A stretch of 64,000 nt of DNA, taken from the NCBI GenBank assembly GCA_003045895.1, contig PZPC01000013.1, positions 1 through 64,000 of the forward strand, written 5' to 3'. Within the stretch, counting starts at the first letter, position 1. Each line of letters starts with the position of its first letter. The notes under the pieces were generated by a model that ran no database searches, was not told the DNA's origin, and saw only the letters and a program-made list of their open reading frames with translations. The DNA comes from Bacteroidota bacterium. GTDB lineage: Bacteria; Bacteroidota; Bacteroidia; Chitinophagales; Saprospiraceae. Below, piece after piece: positions 39,476 through 42,275 of this stretch. Made by a program: the position numbers and the translations under genes.

Positions 39476-40312
39476 ATGTCCACATTTATGAAGTGGCTGG
39501 TGATGTTACTAATCTGGTTAGCGTTTTCGCTTGCTACTTTTCGCATGTGCGTAAAAGAAGCGTGTTGTGATGAATGCGTACAAACAGAGGCCGTGACAGC
39601 CGTACCAGCCGAAACTTCGGTGCAACGTTACCCTATTGACTTTCAGTGGAACGACGCCCAAGCCTACACCAATGCTGGTTTCGCTGCAATCCGCGATCGA
39701 TTAGTCGCTGAGATGGGAGACAACAATTCACTGGTGATTACGGGCAAGTATTTTACCTCCGAAAAAGCGCCGGATGGCTTCTCCTCCATGGGACTGGCCA
39801 GGGCTACACAACTGAGGGATATGCTGGCACCGTACATTTCTCCCGACCGGATCAAACTGGCCGACCTACGACTTGATGACACCGAATCGGTGAAAACCGG
39901 GTATTTCGAAGCCGTCGATTTTGAATGGCGGGCCAATGATGCCAAAGAAACGACCGAGGTGATTGAATTGGCCAACAAAGTCATCATCCGCTTCCCCTAC
40001 AGCTCAGCCGTTAAAGAAGCAGATCCTACGGTCGACGAGTACCTCGACAAGCTGGCTAAACGGCTGCAACAAACAACCGAAAGGATAAAGATTACCGGCC
40101 ATACGGATGATCGTGGTCCTGAAGCAGGCAACCTTAAACTGAGTGAACGACGCGCCCGGTTTATTCGTGATGTATTGGTCAAAAAAGGCGTGGCCACCGA
40201 CCGGATGGATATCGAGTGGAAAGGGGAATCCGATCCTACCTCCAGTAACGATACGGAAGAAGGCCGTCACAACAACCGTCGTGTTGAACTGCAAGTCCTG
40301 AAGGCTAATTAA
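39476..40312 (+). CDS. OmpA-family protein with a degenerate second OmpA-like domain
   Basis: The ATG at 39476 gives 278 aa: a membrane anchor (KWLVMLLIWLAFSLATF, 6-22), a cysteine cluster (CVKEACCDEC, 25-34), then two domains. Residues 165-276 are a normal OmpA/MotB peptidoglycan-binding domain (VIIRFPYSSAVKEAD, ITGHTDDRGPEAGNLKLSERRARFI, GRHNNRRVEL). Residues 52-150 follow the same plan (IDFQWNDAQAY, LVITGKYFTSE, LARATQLRDML) but lack the TDxxG core, suggesting a diverged duplicate. The track's upstream TTG start is less likely. The partner gene begins 30 bases later. Confidence 0.82.
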   Translation: MSTFMKWLVMLLIWLAFSLATFRMCVKEACCDECVQTEAVTAVPAETSVQRYPIDFQWNDAQAYTNAGFAAIRDRLVAEMGDNNSLVITGKYFTSEKAPDGFSSMGLARATQLRDMLAPYISPDRIKLADLRLDDTESVKTGYFEAVDFEWRANDAKETTEVIELANKVIIRFPYSSAVKEADPTVDEYLDKLAKRLQQTTERIKITGHTDDRGPEAGNLKLSERRARFIRDVLVKKGVATDRMDIEWKGESDPTSSNDTEEGRHNNRRVELQVLKAN

Positions 40313-40342
40313 TTTTTTGCTGTCCTAAAAAAACAATCTATT

Positions 40343-41344
40343 ATGTCAAACATATTATTATTCGATACCGGCTGCTGTCATTTTATTTGTCCTTGGTGGC
40401 TGTTGTGGACTTTGGTTGCTTTCTTGTTGGGAGCGCTATTGCACCATTTGCTTTTCTGCAAAGGCAAGCAGGATGAAATAGATAAACTCATCCTTGAGCG
40501 CGATGGCTATCACGCGCAGTACATCAATGCGGAAAAAGATTTGGCTAGCATAAAGTACCAACTCGATCAGGCTAATAAAGAAGTGCGTTCGCTGAAATCG
40601 GCGCTGCACAAGTGCGAGGCCGATGTGGCTGGTCTTAAGGCACACGCCAGTATGGAGTCGGGTGCGGGTGGTGCTGCCCTTGGTTTTGCCGCTGGCGCAG
40701 CGAGCCGCGGCCTGGGCGCTGCGCCTGCCAGCCGGGGAACGACCAACTTCGCTACTATTTTGGGTAGCGATAACCTGCAAATAGTAGAAGGAATTGGCCC
40801 CAAGATTGACGGTTTGCTCAAAGCAGACGGGATCAATACCTGGGGTGAACTGGCAGCTTCTTCTCCCGAGCGCTTAAAGGGTATTCTGGATGTCGCTGGC
40901 TCCCGCTACCGCCTGGCTGATCCCAAAACCTGGCCCCAGCAGGCAAAACTCGCGCACGAAAACAAGTGGGATGAGCTGATTGAATACCAGAAATTTCTCG
41001 ATACTGGTACGGAGACCAAGGGCGACTTCGAAAATCCTTCGAAAGTTGAAAAGTTGATCGCCAAGCTAATGGGCTACTCTACCAACCCCAATGACTTGAA
41101 AGTAGTGGAAGGTATCGGCCCTAAAATCGAAGGCCTGTTGAAAGATGCCGGGATCAAAACCTGGTCGGATTTGGCGGCCGCCAGCATGGATCGTTTGCAA
41201 GGAATTTTAAACGATGCCGGCGACCGCTATCGCCTGGCTGATCCCTCTACCTGGCCCAAGCAGGCTGGTTTAGCAGCTGCCGGAAATTGGGACGAGCTGA
41301 AAACGTACCAGGAATTTCTTGACGGTGGCAAAACACCAGGTTAA
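40343..41344 (+). CDS. Membrane-anchored coiled-coil protein with two helix-hairpin-helix domains
   Basis: A 333-residue protein. Transmembrane helix 17-38, coiled coil about 40-100, Ala/Gly-rich linker 105-135, then two tandem helix-hairpin-helix (H3TH, COG3743-like) domains at 144-219 and 251-326. Each has VEGIGPKI, TW..LA, a GxRYRLADPxTWP segment and a W-D-E-L..YQ.FLD end. The family is described as a predicted DNA-binding or nuclease-like domain, but no catalytic residues are visible. The copies are about 65% identical by eye, so the duplication is fairly recent. It is in an operon with the OmpA-like gene; a strong terminator follows. Confidence 0.82.
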   Translation: MSNILLFDTGCCHFICPWWLLWTLVAFLLGALLHHLLFCKGKQDEIDKLILERDGYHAQYINAEKDLASIKYQLDQANKEVRSLKSALHKCEADVAGLKAHASMESGAGGAALGFAAGAASRGLGAAPASRGTTNFATILGSDNLQIVEGIGPKIDGLLKADGINTWGELAASSPERLKGILDVAGSRYRLADPKTWPQQAKLAHENKWDELIEYQKFLDTGTETKGDFENPSKVEKLIAKLMGYSTNPNDLKVVEGIGPKIEGLLKDAGIKTWSDLAAASMDRLQGILNDAGDRYRLADPSTWPKQAGLAAAGNWDELKTYQEFLDGGKTPG

Positions 41345-41372
41345 ATGATTATGGAGTAAGTTGCTTTTCTTT

Positions 41373-41417
41373 CCCCCACCTCCTGTAATGAATGGAGGTG
41401 GGGGATTTTGTTTTTTT
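41373..41417 (+). terminator. Rho-independent terminator
   Basis: CCCCCACCTCC pairs perfectly with GGAGGTGGGGG (11 bp) across a 10-nt loop, followed by ATTTTGTTTTTTT. It ends the OmpA/HhH operon. Confidence 0.9.
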
Positions 41418-41516: not shown

Positions 41517-42275
41517 ATGATTATGAGACCAATCCTTTCTTTCCTCTTACTTTTGGCTTTTTTTACCCTTACCGGGCAGACGTCCGATAATCCAGCCGCT
41601 GAGGGCTTCCGGGCCAGCGCTTCCGATCCACAGGCTATCCAGTTGGCTGATGAGGTCATGCAAGCTATGGGCGGACGTACGGCCTGGGACAATACCCACT
41701 TTATCCGTTGGACTTTCTTTGGCCGCCGTACCCTGCTGTGGGACAAATGGACGGGTAAGGTGCGAATAGATTTCCCCGACAAGGAGGACGTTTTTATCGT
41801 TGATATCAATACGGGCGAAGGTAAGATCTGGCTAAACGGGGAAGAACAAACACAGCCCGATACCCTGGCTAAATATACGGCTCAGGCCAGGAGCATTTGG
41901 ATCAACGATGCCTACTGGTTGGTGATGCCCTACAAGCTCAAGGACACTGGCGTAACCCTGCGCTATCTGGGCCAGCAGCAACAAGGGGACACCATTCGTC
42001 ATCAGCTGCAACTGACCTTCGAAAATGTGGGCGATACCCCCGAGAATAAGTACTGGGTGTTTGTCGACGACCAAACCAAATTGGTAGATGAATGGCAATT
42101 CTTTCCGCAGTTCGACGATGCAACACCGCGCTTCAGCACCCCCTGGGCTGACTATAAACCGTACGGCGCTATTCTGCTCTCCGGTAACCGTGGGCGCGGA
42201 CAATTGACCGATATTGCCGTTTACGACGAACTCCCTGCCAGCGTTTTTTTGGTGAAAGATCCCTACGAAAGGTAG
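41517..42275 (+). CDS. Secreted DUF6503-like protein
   Basis: A 252-residue protein with a signal peptide (RPILSFLLLLAFFTLTGQ). The mature part, with QLADEVMQAMGGRTAWDNTHFIRWTFFGRR near the start and repeated beta-strands, resembles Bacteroidota DUF6503 proteins, probably a LolA/LolB-like beta fold. No catalytic residues are evident. Two possible starts, two codons apart, make little difference. Its last 13 bases overlap the convergent glycosyltransferase gene. Confidence 0.6.
   Translation: MIMRPILSFLLLLAFFTLTGQTSDNPAAEGFRASASDPQAIQLADEVMQAMGGRTAWDNTHFIRWTFFGRRTLLWDKWTGKVRIDFPDKEDVFIVDINTGEGKIWLNGEEQTQPDTLAKYTAQARSIWINDAYWLVMPYKLKDTGVTLRYLGQQQQGDTIRHQLQLTFENVGDTPENKYWVFVDDQTKLVDEWQFFPQFDDATPRFSTPWADYKPYGAILLSGNRGRGQLTDIAVYDELPASVFLVKDPYER

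Follow-up and report, generated by a model that had tools for sequence, protein, structure and literature searches.

An OmpA–HhH gene pair of Bacteroidota with covarying juxtamembrane cysteines as a candidate envelope tether

What a membrane protein bearing two HhH domains might do beside an OmpA-family protein of predicted peptidoglycan (PG)-binding type is the question raised by two adjacent genes in a Saprospiraceae genome. Both lie within a 64,000 nt stretch of contig PZPC01000013.1, which as a whole is called the window here. A first-pass annotation, made from the letters of the sequence, had read the pair as a two-gene operon with internal duplications in both products, and had proposed for it either a DNA-to-envelope tether or a part in DNA uptake or processing. 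No description of the OmpA–HhH pair was found in the open literature; one article that names both product kinds (PMC10434189) fell outside that check.

Architecture and predicted topology of the two proteins

The two ORFs lie 30 bp apart on the forward strand (Table 1), and both products are internally duplicated, as first described. A strong terminator stands directly after the HhH gene, and the two-gene unit thus ends there. This hairpin was found by folding; a pattern-based scan misses it because its loop is longer than 8 nt. The ATG assigned to the OmpA gene fits the MS... start of its relatives. In the window, ffh is located divergently upstream of the pair. Downstream of the pair, at 41517-42275, is a conserved gene (cluster 3, found in the loci of 14 genomes), whose product is probably secreted and has no Pfam match.

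Table 1. Features of the OmpA–HhH locus, in positions of the window
Feature	Coordinates	Strand	Basis
OmpA-family CDS, inner-membrane-anchored, 278 aa	39476..40312 (stop included)	+	ORF; PF00691; ATG at 39476
OmpA protein, N-terminal TM helix, residues 3-29, predicted N-in	39482..39562	+	AlphaFold; hydropathy, charge pattern
OmpA protein, juxtamembrane Cys cluster C25, C30, C31, C34, predicted periplasmic side	39548..39577	+	alignment; Cys enrichment
OmpA protein, degenerate first OmpA-like domain, residues 54-155	39635..39940	+	hhalign to second domain; AlphaFold
OmpA protein, second OmpA domain, residues 163-278, PG-binding signature T210 D211, R226	39962..40309	+	PF00691; Foldseek; alignment
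Gap between OmpA and HhH genes, 30 bp	40313..40342	+	
HhH-protein CDS (TM, coiled coil, two HhH domains), 333 aa	40343..41344	+	ORF; PF14520/PF14229; AlphaFold
HhH protein, N-terminal Cys C11, C12, C16, predicted periplasmic TM edge	40373..40390	+	sequence; Cys covariation with partner
HhH protein, TM helix, about residues 17-38, predicted N-out/C-in	40391..40456	+	positive-inside pattern; alignment
HhH protein, predicted cytoplasmic coiled coil, residues 39-106	40457..40660	+	single predicted helix 15-106
HhH domain 1, residues 143-222	40769..41008	+	profile, alignment, AlphaFold
HhH domain 2, residues 250-330	41090..41332	+	profile, alignment, AlphaFold
Intrinsic terminator, 12-pair GC-rich stem, 10-nt loop, T-tract	41372..41417	+	-26.9 kcal/mol, z -5.7

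For the OmpA protein, AlphaFold predicts an N-terminal helix followed by two alpha/beta units. A profile search places PF00691 at residues 184-268 with a score of 69 bits (cut-off 27.2), and in Foldseek searches the second domain matches the C-terminal PG-binding domain of OprF (5u1h, E 1.3e-11) and also OmpA with diaminopimelate (DAP; 3td4). The DAP-binding positions are kept among 36 aligned relatives, where D211 is nearly invariant and R226 invariant. Together these comparisons suggest that the second domain is of the PG-binding type. The closest relative, from a sister species (G062), has lost the Asp of the TGHTD motif (GHAS), and this loss counts against the tether model discussed below. 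The first OmpA-like domain is without the TGHTD motif and retains the ARA helix. A profile-profile comparison with hhalign aligned residues 54-155 with residues 163-278 (probability 96.4, E 1.4e-9, 20% identity); judged by this alignment, the N-terminal half of the protein is a diverged copy of its second domain, in agreement with the degenerate and normal domains first noted.

The description of two similar HhH domains on a membrane-anchored coiled coil was likewise confirmed. HHH_5 (PF14520) matches the second protein in two stretches, with 39 bits against a cut-off of 27, and the two units of about 80 aa are 65% identical (52 of 80 positions). AlphaFold predicts one helix spanning residues 15-106, which comprises the TM segment and the coiled coil, and then two five-helix domains. 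Each unit consists of the HhH and two extra helices, and W197, Q200 and Q216 of domain 1 are invariant, as is G30 of the TM helix in an alignment of relatives. A Foldseek search with the model of the whole protein, in which the long helix dominates, gave no significant match (E >= 0.08).

To assign the two proteins an orientation, the charges flanking each TM helix were compared. Saprospiraceae HhH proteins have on average 0.10 Lys/Arg before the helix and 3.10 after it, with more after than before in 39 of 41, and those of Flavobacteriaceae have 0.00 before and 2.08 after, with the same direction in 24 of 24. By the positive-inside rule the C-terminus of the HhH protein is therefore predicted to be cytoplasmic; a periplasmic location of the HhH domains, which the first-pass annotation had named, together with an inability to bind DNA, as contradicting its proposal, is not what the charges predict. 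Around the TM helix of the OmpA protein the net-charge pattern is reversed, though less sharply. OmpA domains act in the periplasm. Both proteins are thus predicted to reside in the inner membrane with one helix each and in opposite orientation, the OmpA domains being periplasmic and the coiled coil and HhH domains cytoplasmic.

Conservation and genomic context of the pair

The value of the first reading depended on whether the pair is conserved, and the two genes do occur together. Among 150 sampled genomes of the window's family, 138 match the HhH protein somewhere, many of these matches being single domains within other proteins. Where the match is strong (the genome's best match at E <= 1e-55), an OmpA match lies immediately upstream, on the same strand of the same contig, in 62 of 62 genomes, and the gene order is OmpA–HhH in all 40 loci that were read out. 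The HhH gene is present in L068, L075, L079 and L086 as well, where its seeming absence came from the choice of a longer antisense ORF. Organism names that go with the pair include Saprospiraceae and Lewinella, and shorter versions with one HhH domain occur in Tenacibaculum, Aquimarina and a Capnocytophaga MAG. Flavobacteriaceae have the pair as well, and 46 of 151 genomes sampled there match the HhH protein. It is rare in Proteobacteria: some MAGs have the reversed order, HhH then OmpA (L133, L136, L234, L239), a related HhH protein was present in 5 of 274 genomes of a class-wide sample around L133, and in Burkholderiales the HhH protein was found in one of 200.

Two further pairs were observed. 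The genome of the window carries a second, diverged paralogous OmpA–HhH pair on another contig (C153, L187:6769-9069), in which the HhH protein is without an N-terminal Cys and the OmpA protein has two spaced Cys. Another genome of the same family (G086, locus L243) has a pair of the Flavobacteriaceae type, which was possibly acquired by horizontal transfer.

With its single TM helix at the N-terminus and an OmpA domain in the periplasm, the OmpA protein resembles anchors of the MotB, ZorB and TssL type, and the ZorB and TssL models match it. It differs from them in its extra degenerate OmpA domain and its Cys cluster, and in having as partner a single-TM coiled-coil HhH protein rather than a multi-TM channel. 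No multi-TM channel partner of the MotAB, ZorAB or ExbBD type recurred as a neighbour at the loci read. A test for Zorya ZorB gave no ZorA partner or defence locus, and a defence role was rejected: ZorB-type models match the OmpA domain only, and the HhH protein has no PADLOC hit.

The neighbouring genes also bear on the suggested role in DNA uptake or processing, according to which the pair would form a complex tied to natural transformation. In one Saprospiraceae subclade (L087, L090, L091, L097, L101 and L102), comEC and a comEA-like gene with HHH_3 motifs lie divergently upstream. This adjacency is limited to that subclade (6 of 41 loci), however; other loci adjoin ffh and other genes, and the neighbours in Flavobacteriaceae are unrelated. 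ComEA, whose DNA side is outside the inner membrane, is like the second protein a membrane-anchored HhH protein, but it is of the HHH_3 type, as is the ComEA-like neighbour in L097, whereas the matches of the HhH protein are to HHH_5 and DUF4332 and its HhH side is predicted to be cytoplasmic. This half of the earlier proposal was abandoned, and we consider it very improbable.

Juxtamembrane cysteines covary between the partners

The covariation of juxtamembrane Cys residues between the two proteins is a new finding, which was missed in the first reading of the sequence. Cysteine is concentrated in the stretch after the OmpA TM helix (125 Cys in 1640 aa, versus 13 in 9479 aa in the rest), and the C30 column is invariant in the alignment of OmpA proteins. 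Nearly all main-class HhH proteins have Cys at the outer edge of the TM helix (n = 41), L092 being the clear exception.

We grouped 49 distinct HhH proteins of the Flavobacteriaceae type by their upstream partner. A full-length OmpA partner accompanies 38 of them, two of these partners (L199 and L204) being read with a broken frame. Seven (L208, L210, L217, L219, L220, L252 and L260) have just upstream a reduced partner of 34-96 aa that keeps the TM helix and Cys motif and has lost the OmpA domains, and four (L215, L262, L265 and L266) have no partner. N-terminal Cys are found in all 45 HhH proteins with a partner, full or reduced, and in none of the four without one (Fisher 4.7e-6, uncorrected for relatedness). 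On the HhH tree the Cys and partner traits each change three times, always together; the independent co-losses of partner and Cys number 2-3, too few for a significant sign test. Whole-genome searches of the four partnerless genomes returned only distant OmpA-domain matches. As the same searches recover some, not all, of the reduced partners, the absence of a partner is taken from the local upstream reading.

A second data set consisted of 88 pairs from Saprospiraceae and named organisms. In 61 of these, a CC or CxxC motif in the OmpA protein goes with Cys in the HhH protein, and in 13 a C-x6-C motif in the OmpA protein goes with no Cys in the HhH protein; the other 14 fall outside both classes, one of them (L070) through a cut-off artefact. 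The first class is as expected of a disulfide between the two proteins, and the second as expected of an internal one. A disulfide is the most likely form of the link, and a shared metal site is possible. The second class, with no Cys in the HhH protein, counts against the tether model.

The covariation, together with the persistence of partners that consist of TM helix and Cys motif, points to a heterocomplex coupled through Cys, and we regard a Cys-coupled, PG-anchored membrane heterocomplex as likely. At the level of gene content, the mini-partners, which have no OmpA domain, show that the predicted PG attachment is dispensable in some genomes, and this counts against the tether model. Such genomes suggest that the pair is built around the membrane–Cys contact, wall binding being optional.

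The same residues could also belong to a redox- or metal-sensing membrane complex, in which the Cys cluster would be the sensor and the HhH part would relay its state to the cytoplasm. The clustering of three to five Cys at the edge of the membrane, frequently as CC or CxxC, is consistent with a sensor, as is the retention of the Cys segment where the OmpA domain is lost. However, neither protein has an output domain (kinase, cyclase or sigma factor) in profile searches, and the Cys positions are more variable than is usual for metal sites. We judge sensing to be improbable, and the Cys-coupled heterocomplex is the reading carried forward here.

The HhH-type domain in other proteins and a model for the pair

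What the cytoplasmic side of such a complex might hold was approached through other proteins with the same domain. By sequence, it is found at the C-termini of bL21, NuoE, uS2 and the phasin PhaH, and it also tails RC-LH1 protein-O, where its function has been described as obscure (PMC12079452). Protein-O of Dinoroseobacter shibae (8yy9) has, like the HhH protein, a TM segment and a C-terminal domain of this family, but it differs in its two TM helices, its internal disulfide and its place in a photosynthetic complex, and no OmpA partner has been described for it. The number of HhH domains per protein ranges from one to seven.

Several further occurrences were seen among the loci read. In the genome of the window, a bL27 (contig C24, L189:7256-7912) has a tail that shares 61% identity with HhH domain 2, and the domain is also found as the tail of a coiled phasin-like protein; a bL27 in L131 has three such domains. 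RpoC (beta') of Planctomycetes MAGs has four copies in L146:1741-7212 and three in L139:1771-7026, and that in L134:5-4621 also bears the domain, RpoC having been identified by Pfam in L139 and L134 and by its matching start in L146. The domain ends a COX1-type oxidase subunit in a Chloroflexi MAG (L181:4510-6438), an NrfD-type membrane subunit (L178:4468-6246) and a uS1-like S1-repeat protein (L175:777-3041). In a protein of 1100 aa (L138:6007-9309), five HhH domains occur together with a long helix rich in Ala, Lys and Glu and with a membrane segment at the C-terminus.

Tails on COX1, NrfD, NuoE, phasin, protein-O, bL27, bL21, uS1 and RpoC are hard to explain by DNA alone, and the occurrence of the domain on both respiratory and ribosomal proteins speaks for a protein ligand or for a mixed role. 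The pair could then be a PG-anchored docking hub: its HhH domains would bind to the same domain, or to a common one, where ribosomal proteins, RNA polymerase, respiratory complexes or phasins carry it as a tail, and these machines would be placed at fixed envelope sites with no need for DNA contact. The range of one to seven domains is consistent with such a hub, as are the tails on RpoC, uS1, NrfD, COX1, NuoE, bL21, uS2 and protein-O, those on bL27 and the phasin-like protein of the same genome, and the position of the invariant W and Q in the two extra helices, outside the HhH hairpin. Against it, homotypic binding is putative, the single-domain (tail-like) matches in Flavobacteriaceae are not distributed like the pair, as judged by ORF lengths and match spans only, and a review describes PhaH as a DNA binder (PMC13052382). 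We consider docking of proteins an unlikely alternative, although a substantial one.

According to that review, non-specific DNA binding via the HhH domain is reported for the C-terminal end of Caulobacter PhaH (PMC13052382, citing Salinas 2023), and PhaH is said to attach PHB granules to the nucleoid. Homology to the PhaH C-terminus reaches E 8e-16, for a paralogue in the genome of the window. No better functional lead to the domain is available, and through sequence homology it favours DNA as the ligand. The tether half of the earlier proposal is thereby supported from outside, by the DNA binding reported for a domain of this kind. The HhH protein is not itself PhaH (NF045508), since its full-length score is 30.9 against a cut-off of 250 and the match is confined to the HhH domain; PhaH is a soluble protein of granules, whereas here the domain is carried by a membrane-anchored coiled coil with a partner of the PG-binding type. 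Net charge was rejected as a test of DNA binding: the HhH domains are net negative (mean -2.8), and a ComEA-like HhH control, which is negative too, shows that charge does not discriminate.

We propose that the pair may form a two-protein, envelope-spanning tether in the inner membrane. The Cys of both proteins would join just outside this membrane, the OmpA protein would reach into the periplasm and hold PG by its second OmpA domain, and the HhH protein would extend into the cytoplasm with its coiled coil and HhH domains. There the HhH domains, one to seven in number, would bind DNA non-specifically, and the nucleoid would be held to the cell wall. The sequences show the domains, the operon, the conserved pairing and the Cys covariation, and topology and folds are predictions. 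We infer physical association of the partners, the chemistry of the Cys link and PG binding from the patterns described above, and it is by homology to the PhaH tail that the HhH domains are candidate DNA binders. The whole mechanism with DNA as the cytoplasmic ligand is, in our estimate, close to an even call, leaning slightly towards doubt. A more specific form, a continuous disulfide-locked bridge from chromosome to cell wall, whose halves would be separate single-pass proteins that coevolve through Cys on the outer face and whose valency would range from one to seven HhH domains, seems to us rather doubtful.

The pair would belong with the envelope tethers, its cytoplasmic ligand being putative. 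In the SUN–KASH (LINC) bridges of the nuclear envelope, a disulfide in the space between the membranes links two TM proteins that couple the chromatin side to a scaffold outside. The likeness is one of working and not of homology, and if the model is true, a disulfide-locked bridge would be a bacterial counterpart of these structures by analogy only. The ligand of this uncharacterised HhH-type domain would explain many proteins at once, among them ribosomal proteins, RNA polymerase, respiratory proteins and phasins. For bacteria that have no dedicated landmark proteins, the mechanical link between nucleoid and envelope is a largely open question. The halves of the pair can be mutated separately, and natural variants exist in which the partner is reduced to TM helix and Cys motif or in which partner and Cys are both lost, which makes the question directly testable.
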